Both the position numbers and the translations under genes were made by a program. A model generated the notes under the pieces. The model made no database searches, was not told where the DNA came from, and saw nothing but the letters and a program-made list of their open reading frames with translations. A stretch of 64,000 nucleotides of DNA from an uncultured Candidatus Melainabacteria bacterium (lineage in GTDB: Bacteria; Cyanobacteriota; Vampirovibrionia; Gastranaerophilales; Gastranaerophilaceae), in assembly GCA_949741915.1 (NCBI GenBank), contig CATJOM010000048.1:124001-188000 (forward strand), written 5' to 3'. This document shows positions 14,274 through 26,848 of the stretch, in pieces. Each line of letters opens with the position of its first letter. Position 1 is the stretch's first letter.

Positions 14274-15122
14274 ATGTATTATCAAGTTCTGATTGAAACA
14301 AATGAAAAAATTGGTAAAAATGGCACCAATAAAAAAATATATCAAATTGATGGAACAAGCGAAGAACGAATAATAAATGATATTATCATTCCCTTTATGA
14401 AAGATATTGAGTTTTGCGTAGATGGTTTTTTTCTTAAAAGAGAAAATATTTGTAGATTAAAAATAAGCACAACTGAAAAGTCAGCACAAGAACTTTCAAA
14501 ATACGAAACCGACAAAAATTTAGCTCGAAACATAATATATCATGTATCTCGACAAAGTATATTGGAATATGATGCATACAATACTGATATAACAAATTTA
14601 TTAATAGAAAAAGCTGGAAAAATTATCAACAGTCAGCAAGTAAAAACAATAGAAAATAAAGGTATATCGAATAAACATAAAGTTTTTATTGTACATGGTC
14701 ATGATTCAGAAGCAAAAATAAGTATTGCACGCTTTATTGAAAAATTGGGATTTGAGGCTGTTATTTTACATGAACAAGTAAACAAGGGTATGACAATAAT
14801 TGAAAAAATAGAAGAAAATTCTAATGTTGGTTTTTGCGTTGTTTTATATACACCATGTGATATAGGCTATGATAAAAATAACGAAAGCAAAAAACAGAAC
14901 CGCGCAAGACAAAATGTTGTATTTGAACATGGATATATGATTGCAAAACTTGGGCGTAATAATGTTTGTGCCATTGTAAAAGGTGAAATAGAAAAACCAA
15001 ATGACATTTCAGGACTTGTATACATTCAAATGGATGCTAATGATGGCTGGCAAATAGGATTAGCAAAAGAGATGAAAAGTGCTGGATATAATATTAACTT
15101 CAATTTAATAATGCAAAAATAG
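14274..15122 (+). CDS. TIR-like (CAP12/Pycsar-type) nucleotide-binding protein
   Basis: 282 residues in two parts. The N-terminal ~120 residues (FMKDIEFCVDGFFLKRENIC) match the accessory region common in such proteins. The C-terminal domain, from about residue 140, begins KHKVFIVHGHDSEAK and continues with KGMTIIEKIEENSNVGFCVV and RQNVVFEHGYMIAKLGR, the pattern of the predicted nucleotide-binding TIR-like family (PF10137). Relatives act in CBASS/Pycsar-type anti-phage defence, where cyclic nucleotide sensing triggers NAD+ destruction; the Glu residues of IIEKIEE lie where the catalytic Glu is expected. No nucleotide cyclase is adjacent, so the trigger is unknown. It sits in a recombinase-associated island after tRNA-Ile. 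Confidence 0.85.
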   Translation: MYYQVLIETNEKIGKNGTNKKIYQIDGTSEERIINDIIIPFMKDIEFCVDGFFLKRENICRLKISTTEKSAQELSKYETDKNLARNIIYHVSRQSILEYDAYNTDITNLLIEKAGKIINSQQVKTIENKGISNKHKVFIVHGHDSEAKISIARFIEKLGFEAVILHEQVNKGMTIIEKIEENSNVGFCVVLYTPCDIGYDKNNESKKQNRARQNVVFEHGYMIAKLGRNNVCAIVKGEIEKPNDISGLVYIQMDANDGWQIGLAKEMKSAGYNINFNLIMQK

Positions 15123-17199: not shown

Positions 17200-20165
17200 T
17201 TAAATTGAAACAACGCTATAAACCAAATTAATGTCTTTTATATTTGCAAAATGCTTATACTCATAAGGTATTTCAACTTTTATAATACTTTTATTTTCAA
17301 CATTTTGAAGATTTTTTTCTTCAATAATATTTTTATCTAGCTGCACAAAATACACACCTGGCTCTATTCCAGATAGATAAAACTCTCCTTTATTATCCAA
17401 TGTTGAGTAAGCTTTTTCTTCACTCTTTTCATCAAGCAAAAATACAACAAAATCTTTTGTATCCATTTTTCTGTCAAAATCATCAACTATATTAACTTTG
17501 CCTGAAATATTTCCCGCACAACTTTTTAGAGGAAATTCAACCCTTGTTGTTTTTCCGCCTTCAACCCTTACCATTTTTGTTTTATTTTCATAATCAATCA
17601 ATGTTGCAGCCAACTTATTGTTATCAATTTTAACGTTATACACGCCGGTATCAATTCCTATTGTAGAAACTCTCCCTTTTTTATTTGTGTAAACATCTTC
17701 ATTCATCCAATTGCATTTAATCGGAACATTTTCAACTTTTATATCTTCTTTGTCAAACTTGCCATTATTGTTTTTATCAATGTAAGCTACAATATCAACA
17801 AATCCCCGATTAGGATTATTAAAACCGACCGATTGAATGCCATTTGGTAAAATCGCCCAGACATCATTTAAATTAATACTTATTGAATGCCTGTTGCTAG
17901 TTGGCATAAACATATTGTTTACAATAAACCCGCCTGTTCTGTTGTATTGGTAGTTTATATTAACCATTCTTCCTGTTTTTGTTTTTATAGCTAAATTAGC
18001 ATTAAAATCAAATCTATTATCATTTCCTGCATATTTATATCCTGTGCCTAAACTGAGTGTAAGATTTTTATAAGCTGGAAATGTATATCCAATTTTTGCT
18101 ATATTATATTCATTTCTAGAATCACTGTAATCATATTTTACAATATCATGTCCCAAGGAAATTTTACCAATGTTTTTAGGCAATTTATAATCAGCCTTTG
18201 CATAGATTGTTGTATACAAAGAATTAAACCCGTTTAAACCGTTATATTCTTGTTTATAATTAGCTTGATAATTACTTTCCGTTTTGCCTGTTTCAAGATA
18301 AAATTCAGGAGTTAATTGTTTCGAAAGATTAAAGTCATAATAATAACTTTTATTATCCGCAAGAGAATTTTTTCCGTTGCGTCCTGTAATATTAAACTTA
18401 ACATTAGCATATTTTTCAAAATTTTTGTTAATTCCAAAATTATAATCATTAAAATCAATCAACCCGCCATCAAATTTATGATTTATGTTGGAAAAATATT
18501 TTTTATATTGCCCATAAACATTTACTCCGTTTTTGAAAAAATCAAAAGAAACTCCTCCGCCAAACATATCATTAATAAAACTTCCACCACTGCCTGCGAA
18601 ATAAAAATCAGACGAGGTATTGAATAGTTCAGCTTCAATGTTGCCGAACTTTCTTTTTAAATTCCCGCCAGCAGAAACGGAATAACCAAAAAGCCGGCTT
18701 GTGCCGAGGCTCAAATCTCTTGCACTACTTATTCCTCCGCTTAATTTATAAACAAGGGAGTTGTTTTTTTGAAGATAAATTGTATTAAAATTCACAATCC
18801 CGTCAAGATTATTTGGATGTTTCCAGGTACCGGAGGTCAAAAGTGCATCATTAGAAGAAAAACTTTGCCAGACTGAGTTTTCAGGACGATAATAAATCCT
18901 GTCTGCAAAAAGTTTTGAGTCTAATTTTATATTATCACATATTGAGTATTGATATTGAACACCTCCAACAGCTTTTTTGGTATCAAGTTCATAAATATAA
19001 CTATCTTGTGTAAAAAGTCTATTATTATATCCGCTTGCTCCAAGAATTACATCATAGCGCATTTCTCCCTTTTTAAGCTCATCAGGATTTGTAAAAGTCT
19101 TTTCTAAAATTATTTCTTCTGAATTATCCGCCTTTAATTCAACAAGTTTGATTTTCTTAGGCTCTTGATTAACAAAAATTTCATCAAAAGAATAATACCC
19201 GTCATAAGTACTCAGGGTTTTTGCTTCCTCATCATCAAAAAACACTTTTACAAGACTTGTTTTATCAACGTAACCTTTAATATCCCTGTAATTTTCTTTT
19301 TCAGAATCGTAATTTCTGATTTGCACTCCTAATAATTGAGTTCCAACATTATAATTTTTTTCAAGAATACCTTTAGGTTTTCCTATTTCATATTCAAAAT
19401 TTTTGAATTTATTTTTATAGTTAACGCCCAAACCTCCAAAAGAAAATAATTCACCCTTATAATTATAAGTATCCATATCAATAGTATAATCGCCGCCGTA
19501 AGCTTTTCCGCCCAAAAGTATTTGAGTATTATTGTTGAAAAATAAATTTTTCTGACTTTGTCCCATCATATATTGAGATATTGAATCCGAAAGCGTGTTG
19601 TTATTTAAACCGAATGAATTTAATTCTAATTTTTTATTTTCGTTTGGAGAGTAGACATTTTGAAAAGCTCTTACTTTAAACTCTTCTTGATGAGTTATCT
19701 TTGGCGGTTCTCCATTTGATGGCTTATTTTCTAAATATATACTTATTGACAAGTTATCTTCATCAGTTTCAATTTTTGTACCAAATATTTTTTCCAAATC
19801 CTTGGCAGAACAAAAAATTTCATCTTTAACATCAGCCATCAAGCCTTTTTTGATATAGAAATTTTTCTTTTTAGAAATATTTTTTCCATCAAAAATTATC
19901 TCATTGACAGAGATTTTGCCTTTTTTATTTTGATATTCAAAAGTGATATCATGTGTTGAATGATTTGTTACAGGTTTAATTTCGAACAGTTCTGAAATTT
20001 GTTTAAATGGAATAAAAATTTTACCGCTTTCTGTCAAAAGGAGTTCAATATCGTAGAAATCGCTATTATTTACCCCCAAAGTTGAAACGGTTGTTTCAAA
20101 ATTTCTAGCAAGGGCAGGAGTTATGAAAGTAAAAAGAAGTAAGATTATTCCTAAAAACGTCTCAT
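17200..20165 (-). pseudogene. fimbrial usher-like outer-membrane protein, frameshifted at its start
   Basis: The long frame (17200 to about 20160) encodes ~985 residues. A short alpha/beta N-terminal region is followed by a long beta-strand-rich, aromatic-terminated section (about 170-760) typical of a beta-barrel. Two Ig/carboxypeptidase-like domains close it (VAYIDKNNNGKFDKEDIKVE; ISGKVNIVDDFDRKM). Position after pilus subunits and a PapD-like chaperone fits an alternate-type usher that exports pili. The only good start, ATG 20165, with AGGAAG upstream and overlapping the previous stop, is out of frame by one base with a perfect signal peptide (LGIILLLFTFITPALA). The first in-frame start (TTG 20079) lacks that peptide. 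Confidence 0.75.
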
Positions 20166-20794
20166 GGCTTCCTGTTTACACTAAGAGTTAAAACTGCCTG
20201 ATAAATGCCAAATGTATCAACAATGGAAGAATATGTATTATTCATAGGTGAAGCCCCAATAGCTTGCTTTATTGTCCCTTTTTGGCTTGAACCGGTTTTT
20301 ATTACATAACAAAGTCCGCCATAAGCAGCATTATCTGTAAGTGTTGCAGAACTTAAATTTGTAAAAGTATTTATAATCGGATATGCAATGACATTTTTAT
20401 TATTTATTGTTGTCGGAGAATTTGTTTTTATATCATTTATTGCAGATGACGTTGGCAGATTTGCAACATTTCCAAGTAATAGATAAGTAATTGAACCATT
20501 TTGAGAGTAGGCATTCAAGTTTCTGCTATCGGATGTATTTACTTTTGCAGTTAAAATATAATCGTATTTGTCATCATTTCCATTTGATTGAATTTGAAAA
20601 GTCGCATAAGGCGCCGAACTGTTTCCTGTCTCAGGGTTAATTGTGCCTGATGCAGCAGATGCATTGATTGAACTTACATCAACTGCAGAAGGTACAACCG
20701 TTTGAATAGTATGCTGAAATTCTGCAAGTCCAAAAGCTTTTGGACTTGCAAGAGTTAATAAAGCAAGAAATAAATATTTTAGAATTTTCAGCAT
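20162..20794 (-). CDS. pilus subunit (spore coat U / CsuA-like), intact
   Basis: 210 residues with signal peptide (LKYLFLALLTLASPKAFGLA). The mature part is Ser/Thr/Asn-rich beta protein with the donor-strand-like ending QAVLTLSVNRKP. It closely parallels the interrupted subunit at 20804-21426 (shared TINPETGN/TITPDTGN and NTYSS(I/Y) ... YQA(V/I)LTLS). Such subunits are capped by a PapD-like chaperone and polymerised through an usher. It is the only intact gene of the minus-strand pilus set. No Shine-Dalgarno is visible before the ATG, so it may be coupled to the preceding gene, 9 bp away. Confidence 0.75.
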   Translation of the reverse strand: MLKILKYLFLALLTLASPKAFGLAEFQHTIQTVVPSAVDVSSINASAASGTINPETGNSSAPYATFQIQSNGNDDKYDYILTAKVNTSDSRNLNAYSQNGSITYLLLGNVANLPTSSAINDIKTNSPTTINNKNVIAYPIINTFTNLSSATLTDNAAYGGLCYVIKTGSSQKGTIKQAIGASPMNNTYSSIVDTFGIYQAVLTLSVNRKP

Positions 20795-20803
20795 AATATT
20801 TTT

Positions 20804-21426
20804 TTATAAAGATGTAGTAGAAAGCGTTAAAATAGCCTGATAAGTACAAGCTGTATCAAGATAAGAGTAAGTATTCGCAAGAGGCGCCGTTCCAGTTGTA
20901 GTTGTTACAATAGTTTGCCCTGCACTAGCCTTTACATTATATTGATTTTTCGTACTATCATAAGTTACAGTGCCCGAATTATCAGCAGCAGAACTTGCAA
21001 TCGGATAAGCTATTGCATTTGCATTGTTTGCAGAGCTTGGAGACGCAGCTTTACAATCCGTATAGCTGCTGTCAAAGGCTTGTTTGTCGTATTAGATAAA
21101 ATTATATAAGTTGTTCCACCCTGCGCAAAAAAAGCGACTTCGGAGCTGCTAGTTGTGCTTTCAGTCGTAGCTTTCAAGTATAAATCCTGAGCATTTGCGT
21201 TTGCCCTTATTTGAAATTTTGAAATTAAAGCTGTTGCTAAATTCCCTGTATCAGGCGTTATCGTAGTTGTTGTAACAGCGCCCGAGGTTAGAACCTGTAC
21301 GTCTAAATAATTGGCCAGTGTTGCCTGGATAGTTTGAGAAGCTGTATTACTTAATGCGTAAGATGCATTAATTGTGCCTAAAATAGCGGGAATTAAAAAT
21401 AACCCTGCAAGTTTTTTGTTTAACAT
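20804..21426 (-). pseudogene. pilus subunit (CsuA-like), frameshifted
   Basis: Starts well (AAGGAGG 4 bases before the ATG) with signal peptide KKLAGLFLIPAILGTINASY and a mature N-terminus TASQTIQATLANYLDVQVLT. Near 21060-21064 the frame changes: the first frame drifts into unrelated residues, while the -1 frame continues as DCKAASPSSANNANAIAYPI and ends ANTYSYLDTACTYQAILTLS at a TAA at 20804. That ending matches the intact paralogue downstream, so one base was lost. About 206 residues if repaired. Confidence 0.75.
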
Positions 21427-21438
21427 TTTTCCTCCTTT

Positions 21439-22273
21439 TTAAATGTTTGTTTGTTTAGTTTTTATAACATTCACTGTTGATTCTTTTATCAGGTTTTTTG
21501 TTTTTCCATTTTCATCTTTGTAATTAAGTATGAGACGGATTTTATATTCCCCACCTTCTGTAATTTTATCCATAGGCAATATTTCATTTGTTAATAAGAA
21601 ATTTTTTGCTCCTACTACGTTATTATTAATTGGTTTTTCATCAATAAGAGTTCTGCCTTTTATAATTTGGGCTTTTCCTGAATATCTGATTTTACTGTTT
21701 CCGTCAGATAAAATTTTCATATTGCAAACAAGTTTTCCCCCTGCTGTTCAGCCTTAAAAAGCTCTATTTCTCCTTTTTTTATTACATGACCTTTATCCAA
21801 GTAAACTGGAATTCCAACTCTTGTTTTTACAAGCAGTTTTGTTGTCACATCTTTATTTTGATACGGCAAAATAACTTCTTTTGCTGCTACATCTTCTAGA
21901 AACAATACAAGTCTTGATTCTCCATCTGGAAGCTTATCAAAATCACTAACAGTTAAACGTACCTTTTGGATTCTGCCGTTTTGAAGGGTAAATTCAGATG
22001 GAACAAATTTTATATTGTTTATCAAAGAATCCTCTGCAGGCATTTTTTCAAGCATATCCATTGCACCTTTAGATGTTATCTTGAAATATTCAGGATAAAC
22101 CTTAAAGCGTATTGTTTCATCTTCACCGCCTTGAACGGTAAACATGAGGTTACATAATTGCTTCTTGCACCTTTTGTGTCCATCTCGATTACTGTTGGTG
22201 TAACTTTTATTGCAGCTTGTGCTTGAAGAGAAAAGAAAATTATACAAAACAATAGTGGTAAAATTTTCTTCAT
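21439..22273 (-). pseudogene. PapD-like periplasmic pilus chaperone, two frameshifts
   Basis: Three overlapping frames make one chaperone. Part 1 (from 22273, AGGAGG upstream) has the signal peptide KKILPLLFCIIFFSLQAQA and the first strand IKVTPTVIEMDTKGARSNYV. A one-base loss near 22140-22150 moves it to part 2 (FTVQGGEDETIRFKVYPEYF ... GRIQKVRLTVSDFDKLPDGE SRL), the N-terminal Ig domain. At 21717-21720 it shifts again to part 3 (MKILSDGNSKIRYSGKAQII), the C-terminal domain. Repaired length is about 275 residues. ATGA at the second junction could instead be ordinary gene overlap, but splitting one chaperone between its domains would be odd. Confidence 0.7.
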
Positions 22274-23161
22274 TTAACCATCCTCCTGTAAAATGTATTT
22301 CACATAATTTTTATAATTGCCTTCTTGTAGAAAAGCGCCTGAATTATTGATAAGGTAATATTTTAAAAGAATATAATCCTGTGAATAACTCCCTGTGATT
22401 GGTGTCGTATAAGTTCCTACTCCTTTTGCAAGCGTATATTGCTGATTAGCTTCAAGCTTTACAGGATTTGTTGAATAATCATTAACATGGCTTGTCGCAG
22501 ATAATATTTGAAAATAATAATTTCCTATCAATGCGCCTAAATTTGATGTATCCATTACAAGTTTCCATTTCTTATTGGATTTAATATTAATTTGAGGAGA
22601 AACTGTATTAGAAACATTTGCAGCTGTATTAAAAACATCATCAGGAGTTAGCGAAATCATCACAGGAGTAGTTGTTGTTGAAACAGATTATTCAACAGGG
22701 ATTGTAAAAGTTAAAGTGAATATAAACGTTTCAGTGGATAGATTTGCATTAAGTGCAAATTGTAATCTTGTATTATAAGTTCCCGCAGGAATTGCACTAA
22801 CATTATTTACAACAGCATTATAAGGTTTTGTATAAGGTGTAATGCTAATAAGAGTATTCAATATGGTAACATCAATATTGTTCTGGATTTAATAAGAGCT
22901 TGCTCCGTCAATCAAATACAATTGTGTAATCGGAATTTTTAAAGAACTGTTAGTTGTATTTGTAATATAAGAATCAAGAGCCTTAACTTTTAATGCAACC
23001 AAAAGATTTAACAACCCGCTCATAATAACATTTATCGGCTGAGAAATTTGTGTCGCAGATACAACAGTACTTGCTGCGCTTTGCACATCAATTACAGCTT
23101 CAGCTTTAGTTACAGCAAAAAAGAAGAAAAAATATCTGATTGATAAATAGCTTTCTATCAA
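22274..23161 (-). pseudogene. pilus tip/minor subunit-like protein with two in-frame stops
   Basis: One continuous frame of 296 codons is interrupted by TAA at 22889-22891 and TAA at 22688-22690. Before, between and after the stops the protein keeps the same character: signal-like YFFFFFAVTKAEA, beta-rich IPAGTYNTRLQFALNANLST, then NKKWKLVMDTSNLGALIGNY. Each stop could arise from CAA (Gln) by one C-to-T change. The start is unclear (TTG 23161, no ribosome-binding site). First gene of the minus-strand pilus set, directly before the chaperone. Likely an adhesin or minor pilin that is no longer made in full. Confidence 0.7.
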
Positions 23162-23220
23162 CGGTCGGGTAATTACAAAGAAGAATCTTGTTTTTCGCTT
23201 TTGGATTTAAAATTCTATTG

Positions 23221-23698
23221 ATGAAATTTTATTTGGGCATTTTTGTTATTTTTTATCAGCACAACTCAAGGTTTTTGCACAGAGAAAGCAAACCAAAATC
23301 TTAATGCAGTATTATCGAACGTTTATGAGATAGAAAAAATCATTGTTGAAACTGAAGAGTATTACAGAGATGAATATTTAAGTAATATGACGATAAAAAA
23401 TTCTACGAGTGCCAATCTTAATCAAAATATCTTAGAACTTTCCCCCATAAAAGTTCAGATAAGAACAAATATGAACACGCCAATTATCATTTATGCGAAT
23501 TTTAAAGATTTAAAACATAAACATGGCATGTACAATTTCAGCAGGTCAAATCTTTTTGTTGTTCCATCTTCTTACGCGATTAATAATCCTTATGACCATG
23601 TTATAAGTGGTAATTTTATACCCTATGTAACGGTTGCACCTGATGCAATCAAAGGTGAATACAGAGGAACTCTAACTTTTACCTTAGGAGGAATATGA
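23221..23698 (+). pseudogene. secreted pilus-like protein, frameshift just after the start
   Basis: From about 23229 the frame reads FIWAFLLFFISTTQGFC, a good signal peptide, then a 130-residue beta-rich protein ending GEYRGTLTFTLGGI, like the donor-strand end of CsuA-type subunits. The only ATG at the right place (23221) is out of frame by one base: ATG-AAA-TTT-TAT instead of ATG-AAT-TTT-ATT. A TTG at 23243 is in frame but leaves an incomplete signal peptide. It stands divergent to the pilus operon and overlaps the next gene by 4 bp. Confidence 0.6.
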
Positions 23699-24399
23699 AA
23701 AAGTTCTTTATACTCTTACTTTGCACGATTCAATTGCAAGGGTTTTGTGCAACAAACAATTCAAATAATGAATTTGATATAACAATAGACAATATTCCGC
23801 CTGGTGGAGAAGACTCAATTAATGAATCTGGCGGATTGAGCGGAAGAGCAGTTACGGCTATAACGCTCGGCTCAATTTTTGGAGGCTTGGCAGCGGGAGG
23901 AATAGCATATTATTTTTACAAAAAAGGGACTTGCCTAACAGGAGCATGCTGTTGGGATAAAAAAAGCCCGCTAATCCCAATTTGTGGCAACAAAAAGAAT
24001 GAATACATCAACAATGATTATCCGCAACTTAAAAGAGCAATAGAAAACGAAGATATTTGTTTAGATTGCTCAAAGAAAAAATATATATTTATTCAAGATT
24101 ATATTGTTAAAAACAAAACTTTTTTGCGGTTTTACTTTAAGAATGAAGATTTTAGCAAAATAAAAGCTATTCAATATTCAAAACCTTTTGCAATTTCAAA
24201 AAACATTCCTGAATTTGATACAAAAATCTTTAAAGAAGACAAAGAAATTGCTTTAAGTACGCAAAAAATAAATCCCAAAGAAGGCATTTTGATAAAGAAA
24301 GGAAAATTAACAAAAAACGAGATTTATTTTTTAGACACAAGCTTTGCAGGCAAAGACACTGAAAACATTTTTGCAATTATTCTTGAATTTGAGAGGTAA
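23695..24399 (+). CDS. membrane-anchored hypothetical protein of the pilus locus
   Basis: 234 residues. Signal peptide KKFFILLLCTIQLQGFCA; Gly-rich linker; one membrane helix at about residues 52-76 (AVTAITLGSIFGGLAAGGIA); a Cys-rich patch (GTCLTGACCWDKK, later CLDCSKKK); then a soluble beta-rich domain. GGAGGA in the end of the preceding gene serves as its ribosome-binding site (ATGA overlap). The last 23 bp overlap the photolyase gene tail to tail. No family recognised. Co-transcription with the subunit-like gene suggests a role at the same cell surface. Confidence 0.65.
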   Translation: MKKFFILLLCTIQLQGFCATNNSNNEFDITIDNIPPGGEDSINESGGLSGRAVTAITLGSIFGGLAAGGIAYYFYKKGTCLTGACCWDKKSPLIPICGNKKNEYINNDYPQLKRAIENEDICLDCSKKKYIFIQDYIVKNKTFLRFYFKNEDFSKIKAIQYSKPFAISKNIPEFDTKIFKEDKEIALSTQKINPKEGILIKKGKLTKNEIYFLDTSFAGKDTENIFAIILEFER

Positions 24400-25648
24400 T
24401 ATAGTTTGAAAGATTATATTTTCTTTTTATTGAATTATAGGTCATTCTTCGAATTTTACCGGTAATAGGATAATCTGCGAATGCTCTGTCATGTAATCCT
24501 CCCAGCGCCCATAAAATTCCGACATATCCGTTTGCAGACGGTGCATCAAATCCATACTTGTCATTTAAATATACTGCAATTTCTAATGCTTCATTTGGAT
24601 TATCAGTCCACTCCATAATTTTTTTTGCCCAATACATTCTTAAATATCCATGAATTGCTCCATCATTTATTAATTGATGTTGAGAAGCATTCCAAAGTTC
24701 ATCATGCGTTTTTGCATATTCTAATTCTTGAATAGAATAAATATACGGTCTGATGTCGTATTTATGAGTATCAAGCGATATTTTTGCCCAAGTTTGTATG
24801 CTTGAAAAATCTTTAAAATTTTTAGTATGCAAACAGAAATTATCTGCCAACTCCTTCCTTGTGATAAGCTCCTCTAAAAACATCTCTTTGTTTTCTGTTG
24901 AAATATCTGATTTTATAACTGCTAGTGCAGCTTTTTGACTTGAAAGAAAACCACAATTTAAATATCTCGATAAACCTGATAAAACATTTTTTGATGGGTT
25001 GTTTTTAAATTCTGCGTAGTGCGGCAATTTCTTTTCAATAAATTCTTCTAAAACATAATCTGCTTCAACTTTTTCATTTGTCAGATGTTCAAATTCAGTT
25101 AAAAATGGATAAATATTATGGTAAATTTTTCTTCTTAAAGTTGCAGCACTGTATTCTTGCTTATCAGAAATATATTTTGCAGGGATTATATTATGACCAT
25201 CAATTTCAAATACTTTAAAATTTACTTTTTTAAGCCAATCTCTTTTTAAAATCGGATTAAAATCAATAATCAATAAAGCTAGATTTAAATTTTTAACAAT
25301 TTCATAAGGAGTTTTATCAACAATTTCAAAATCAAGATTTAAATTTTGAAATATTCGTTGGGCTTGCTGAATTTGTTCATCTATAAATTTTTGTTTTGGT
25401 AAATATTCATAATTAATTTTGGGGTGAATAATTTTTAGCGGAAGATTTAATTCATTGCTTTTTTGCAAAGCAAATTGAAGCGCAAAATTATCCTTTGCTC
25501 TGATTTCTCTTTCACAAAGATAGAGAATATTGCAGACTTTAGTTGATTTATTGTTAATTTCAAAAATTCTTGCAGGGTTGACAGCTTTTTCTATTGCAAT
25601 TTTATCTGATAGATATTTTAAAAGAGTATTTTTAGTTATTCTAGGCAT
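24377..25648 (-). CDS. phr: class II deoxyribodipyrimidine photolyase
   Basis: 423 residues. Repairs cyclobutane pyrimidine dimers using blue light and FAD. The N-terminal Rossmann-like domain begins NILYLCEREIRAKDNFALQF, the class II signature region. The FAD-binding half has ASQHQLINDGAIHGYLRMYW, DKYGFDAPSANGYVGILWAL and GLHDRAFADYPITGKIRRMT, all matching class II enzymes. Its ATG overlaps the end of the upstream tspO gene by 8 bp, so the two form an operon. Unexpected if the host lives in the dark. Confidence 0.9.
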   Translation of the reverse strand: MPRITKNTLLKYLSDKIAIEKAVNPARIFEINNKSTKVCNILYLCEREIRAKDNFALQFALQKSNELNLPLKIIHPKINYEYLPKQKFIDEQIQQAQRIFQNLNLDFEIVDKTPYEIVKNLNLALLIIDFNPILKRDWLKKVNFKVFEIDGHNIIPAKYISDKQEYSAATLRRKIYHNIYPFLTEFEHLTNEKVEADYVLEEFIEKKLPHYAEFKNNPSKNVLSGLSRYLNCGFLSSQKAALAVIKSDISTENKEMFLEELITRKELADNFCLHTKNFKDFSSIQTWAKISLDTHKYDIRPYIYSIQELEYAKTHDELWNASQHQLINDGAIHGYLRMYWAKKIMEWTDNPNEALEIAVYLNDKYGFDAPSANGYVGILWALGGLHDRAFADYPITGKIRRMTYNSIKRKYNLSNYITSQIQE

Positions 25649-26218: not shown

Positions 26219-26848
26219 AAAGAAGATTTAGATTTAGAACAACTATTTTTAATGCTTCAAAAATGTCTTGATGTGTTTGGTTTTGAATGGTTTTTTGTTT
26301 ATCTAGCAATATCAGCCTTTACTGGTATGAGGCAAGCAGAAGTAATAGGATTAGATGTAGATAAAATTGATTTTGATAAAAATATAATTAAAGTCCGTCA
26401 GCAATATACAAGAAATGAGCTTAAGGGCAAATTGAAAACCAAATCTTCATATAGAGATATAGATATGTTTCCTTTGTTTGCAAGTATATTAAAAACCTAT
26501 ATTATCAAGAAAAGAATATTTAAAGGTGCCTTATTAAAAGGCAATACTGGAAGTAACAGGGCAAACAGCAGTTTTATGCTAAAAAAATACTGGAAACCAC
26601 TAAAAGTTGCGTGTGGTTTTGAAAAAATGAAAGGTCTAACTCCTCATAGTTTGAGAGGGTGTTTTACTGATTTTTGTCTTGAAGAAAGCATTGACGACAA
26701 ATTTGTTCAAGGAACCTTGGGGCATTCAAATATCACAACAACAAAAAATATCTACGCAAAGAAAACCAAAAAGATGAGCGAAAATTATAAACATAAAATG
26801 CAAGAAGTTTGCGAAGAATTTACACAAAAATTAAACTGGAATTTTTGA
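26201..26848 (+). pseudogene. tyrosine recombinase (phage-type integrase), N-terminally truncated
   Basis: The frame is open only from 26201 (TGA just before). The first ATG at 26252 gives 198 residues, the catalytic domain alone. Active-site residues are present: Arg in TGMRQAE, Lys region after the beta hairpin, His-x-x-Arg in TPHSLRGCF, His in LGHSNITTTKNIYAK and the nucleophilic Tyr in the same stretch. The N-terminal arm-binding and core-binding domains (usually ~150-200 residues) are absent, so it is probably inactive on its own. It begins within the degenerate tRNA-Val 3' repeat, which marks it as the integrase of a former tRNA-Val island. Confidence 0.8.

Follow-up and report, generated by a model that had tools for sequence, protein, structure and literature searches.

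Fimbrial pseudogenes are already well known. Host-restricted serovars of Salmonella carry frameshifts in fimbrial clusters that are otherwise undeleted, and these have been read as the recent inactivation of functions that were unneeded or harmful (PMC3373541). In the same phylum as the bacterium studied here, the cyanobacterial CccSP/slr0019 chaperone-usher genes carry the SCPU (PF05229), PapD_N (PF00345) and Usher (PF00577) domains (PMC4390875). For the order Gastranaerophilales, no literature linking these bacteria with chaperone-usher pili was found in the library searched.

The locus described here resembles the Salmonella pseudogenes (PMC3373541) in its frameshifted fimbrial genes, but it comes from another phylum, from gut commensals, and has a different usher family. 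With CccSP/slr0019 (PMC4390875) it shares the phylum and the pathway, yet its family of proteins falls short of the PF05229, PF00345 and PF00577 models. Like the type 1 (FimD/FimC), Pap and archaic Csu systems, it has an usher fold, a chaperone fold and secreted subunits, and its operon holds a tip, a chaperone, two subunits and an usher. Unlike them, it has no PF00577 match and no solved relative by sequence, its gene order is tip-chaperone-major-minor-usher with an additional divergent gene pair, its usher ends in SdrD_B/carboxypeptidase-regulatory-like domains, and the operon copy is broken. What is new about the locus is modest: a divergent usher family that has decayed repeatedly.

The locus lies within a 64,000-nucleotide stretch of DNA (the window, to which all positions refer), part of contig C48 of a draft genome of 2.45 Mb in 126 contigs that is probably a metagenome bin. 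Reading leftward from about 23161, the order of the genes is tip-like subunit, chaperone, major subunit, minor subunit and usher, all on the minus strand, and the pair divA and divB runs divergently from 23221. The tip-like subunit gene, the first of the operon (22274..23161), is without an ATG start, having only a TTG at 23161, and contains in-frame TAA codons at 22889-22891 and 22688-22690. The gene for the periplasmic PapD-like chaperone (21439..22273) has two frameshifts, near 22142-22145 and 21720-21735, and that for the major pilus subunit (20807..21426) has one near 21058-21070. The minor pilus subunit (20162..20794) is intact, with 210 aa and 47-53% identity to its counterparts in intact relatives. 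The outer-membrane usher gene (17200..20165) has an ATG at 20165, which overlaps the stop codon of the minor subunit, and an in-frame TAG four codons on (20151-20153). The frame changes between the two, and this frameshift in the first codons cuts off from its start and signal peptide an usher body (17200-20079) that is open over 959 codons, within a stop-free frame of 991 codons. On the plus strand, divA (23221..23698) is a secreted subunit-like gene with one frameshift in its signal peptide, after the ATG at 23221 and before the frame that is open from 23243 on. The second divergent gene, divB (23695..24399, plus strand), is intact and encodes a glycine-rich segment that likely lies in the membrane. 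It belongs to the pilus locus, being found in every fully intact locus of the relatives. The pilus subunits have signal peptides and the conserved subunit pattern, and are putatively polymerised by donor-strand exchange.

The lesions were placed by aligning proteins of intact relatives to the window, and total five frameshifts (two in the chaperone and one each in the major subunit, usher and divA) and two in-frame TAA codons, spread over five genes. The preliminary description had arrived at the same count from the window alone, and had rightly taken the subunit at 20162-20794 to be whole. Its statement that five genes are interrupted holds in that all five carry lesions, although in the usher the break is confined to the 5' end. 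The breaks in the usher and divA signal peptides were found by reading frames and not by the automatic homology scan described below. The minor subunit, divB and the usher body are free of lesions, and the genes flanking the pilus locus are intact.

Several of the neighbouring genes have features of their own. Just upstream of the dehydrogenase, an intact gene at 14274-15122 (plus strand) encodes a CAP12/Pycsar-type TIR effector domain (PF10137, E 1.4e-40), and its product is likely an anti-phage defence effector. The photolyase-like protein encoded at 24377-25648 (minus strand) scores only 20.6 bits against DNA_photolyase, for which the cut-off is 26.6, and has homologues across the order at 50-71% identity. 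Also near the pilus locus, at 26252-26848 (plus strand), is a phage-integrase-family protein of 198 aa (PF00589), which is short for a full integrase.

The identification as a chaperone-usher system is carried by fold and gene order. None of the Pfam or NCBIfam usher or chaperone models reaches threshold on the proteins of the locus; the window copy of the chaperone gives a weak PapD_N match. Pfam Usher (PF00577) has no match in the 15 genomes carrying the family, those being the window genome and 14 relatives, and searches of PDB sequences with usher, chaperone and subunit profiles gave nothing useful. In the phylum beyond the order, matches are confined to the C-terminal domain of the usher. 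However, PF00577 is a sequence marker of the usher family and not of the mechanism, and the fold match shows that the model misses the family of the window. The structure predicted for the window usher, for which 11 relatives were aligned (pLDDT 79), has the beta-barrel and plug of the usher fold, and in a structure search its top 17 PDB matches are FimD/PapC (E 4.6e-26). The chaperone, modelled from an intact relative because the window copy is broken (pLDDT 84), has the two-domain Ig-like PapD-type fold and matches FimC, CfaA, CsuC, Caf1M and PapD, with a Gram-positive WxLIP protein ranking first. The subunit, chaperone and usher genes form one operon, in the same order in intact relatives. 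The chaperone-usher label given in the preliminary description is therefore right by fold (FimD/PapC for the usher; FimC/CsuC/Caf1M for the chaperone) and by gene order. As a separate observation, a chaperone-like gene of a distant relative (G050, L033 5834-6793, minus strand) matches the WxLIP host-binding domain PF11797 (E 4e-6), which together with the WxLIP structure matches raises the possibility of a deep connection between the chaperones of pili and the WxL systems of Gram-positive bacteria.

How widespread is this operon, and in what state is it found? Of the 383 genomes of the order, 73 have an usher homologue. A contig scan with the single usher sequence found nothing, and one with an usher alignment worked. 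The named carriers of the usher subfamily of the window are gut metagenome bins of Candidatus Gastranaerophilales / Melainabacteria. In six relatives (G088, G089, G096, G159, G239 and G326) all seven genes are intact and in the same order. Counting the window, damage is seen at 13 of the 20 loci of the subfamily that could be scored, a count per genome and not per independent event. The damage consists of single frameshifts in the usher of G011, the usher of G274 and the chaperone of G366; multiple lesions in the window; and large deletions that leave fragments in G105, G109, G114, G126, G131, G150, G154, G246 and G357. Of these, G150, with only 45% identity to the reference, is less surely assigned to the subfamily, and in G246 and G357 a deletion ends at the same point. 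Two further loci, in G342 and G289, reach contig ends and were excluded. When the usher is considered by itself, in counts tallied from the usher survey of the order, it is broken in 11 of 19 members of the subfamily (the window not counted) versus 4 of 57 in the other subfamilies (Fisher p = 1.1e-5), whose ushers are almost all open. Assembly errors may also be present in the relatives, whose genomes are MAGs. The same-genus genome G001 has no match to the usher or the photolyase, a result that carries no weight because the genome is only 78% complete.

Some of the deletions are also of interest in themselves. The same internal usher deletion, of about residues 799-910, is present in G246 (L185 2085-2776) and G357 (L186 1991-2439), which are of different genera; this suggests that the remnant is shared or has been transferred. 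In G150 (L188), G126 (L189) and G246 (L185), an usher fragment is found next or close to the C-terminal part of divB, with different break points, as if everything in between had been deleted independently.

We conclude that the locus is very probably a recently inactivated chaperone-usher pilus operon, seen at one stage of the decay that this subfamily has undergone repeatedly in the order. That the inactivation is recent, as the preliminary description proposed, is suggested by the extent of erosion. The usher tree places the window as sister to all other members of the subfamily, on a longer branch (0.77), and no closer relative was found. At sites invariant in other members, the window differs at proportions of 0.25 in the usher, 0.20 in the minor subunit, 0.27 in the tip and 0.25 in the major subunit. 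The broken genes (tip and major subunit) are thus no more eroded than the open ones (usher and minor subunit), which suggests that the breaks are recent relative to the branch leading to the window. The corresponding value for the chaperone fragments is inflated by mis-aligned pieces and was not used.

Is this a true pseudogene cluster, or has faulty sequence produced the appearance of one? For the background, 248 kb of the same contig (with the window among them) were combined with about 86 kb drawn from further contigs of the genome, and this DNA was searched with the proteins of relatives, taken from stretches totalling about 1.6 Mb. This homology scan replaced a codon-usage HMM for frameshifts, which was too coarse and mistook gene junctions for lesions. 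It covered 89.0 kb, of which 83.5 kb lie outside the locus and 5.5 kb inside. Outside there were 0 frameshifts and 0 internal stops, a few stops listed there being alignment edges that were not counted as internal; inside, the same automatic method detected three frameshifts and two stops. Were lesions evenly spread, the chance of all five falling inside the locus would be about 1e-6. Since the other homology-covered DNA of the genome is free of lesions, random error is rejected, in agreement with the preliminary description. An error limited to the pilus stretch, for instance through low coverage, could still mimic a broken operon in a draft of 126 contigs, and the single frameshifts at homopolymer runs in relatives G274 and G366 could be errors of this kind. 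This we consider unlikely, as the flanking genes and the 83.5 kb elsewhere are free of lesions, two of the lesions are nonsense codons, and the relatives show independent, grosser damage. In addition, the first chaperone break and the major-subunit break have no homopolymer run of five or more nearby; the longest runs near lesions are T5/T6, in the signal-peptide regions of the usher and divA, and A7/G5, upstream of the point where the chaperone is broken for the second time.

Having no lesions, the usher body, the minor subunit and divB could retain some role. Together they might build a reduced structure at the surface; slippage would then rescue the usher, acting on the T5 run that carries its break, after the start codon and directly before the TAG. 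Such a partly functional remnant is very unlikely. Subunits of this pathway need a chaperone, and an intact one is absent; T5 is a weak slippage site; and pieces of the usher are also kept in other remnants of the order without a common pattern. With about seven lesions, moreover, their uneven spread among genes is weak evidence for a remaining role.

Phase variation is frequent in fimbrial operons, and the preliminary description had raised on-off switching, but, despite the short T5/T6 runs close to the usher and divA breaks, a phase-variable locus in its off state is so improbable that we reject it, because no hypermutable simple repeat of a length for slipped-strand switching occurs at the seven lesions (the tandem-repeat scan was negative), no invertible promoter segment or long inverted repeats around the promoter were seen (the inverted-repeat scan gave only imperfect, chance-like repeats), and a joint reversal of seven lesions, which are spread over five genes and include two nonsense codons, is impossible.

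Recent inactivation of the operon remains the preferred reading, although the genome is a draft and probably a metagenome bin, so that an intact allele might exist in a minority. In the intact state, judging from fold and gene order, a pilus would be assembled as in the relatives. Sec would export the subunits, the PapD-like chaperone would cap them, and the FimD-like outer-membrane usher would then take them over for polymerisation into a fibre with the product of the first gene at its tip. In the window no complete reading frame is left for the tip, the chaperone or the major subunit, and the usher and divA have starts that are out of frame with their bodies. The usher and divA would lack signal peptides, the tip, chaperone and major subunit would not be made whole, and no pilus would be assembled. 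No second usher of this family was found in the window genome, so that the pathway appears to be lost there, and the organism presumably makes no pilus. A plasmid search likewise found no usher on plasmids.

A broader reading, to which we give slightly less than an even chance, is that gut Gastranaerophilales have a chaperone-usher pilus class of their own, beyond the reach of usher profiles and with two extra, divergently transcribed secreted proteins, and that one of its subfamilies is being lost time and again, perhaps adaptively, across many host-associated species, with the window caught in mid-decay. Standard annotation misses this pilus family, and the adhesive organelles of gut Melainabacteria have therefore probably been overlooked. 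The loss of the subfamily forms a natural series, from intact operons through those with one lesion and those with many to fragments. This series could be set against host and diet, and such a comparison could show what the pilus is for.
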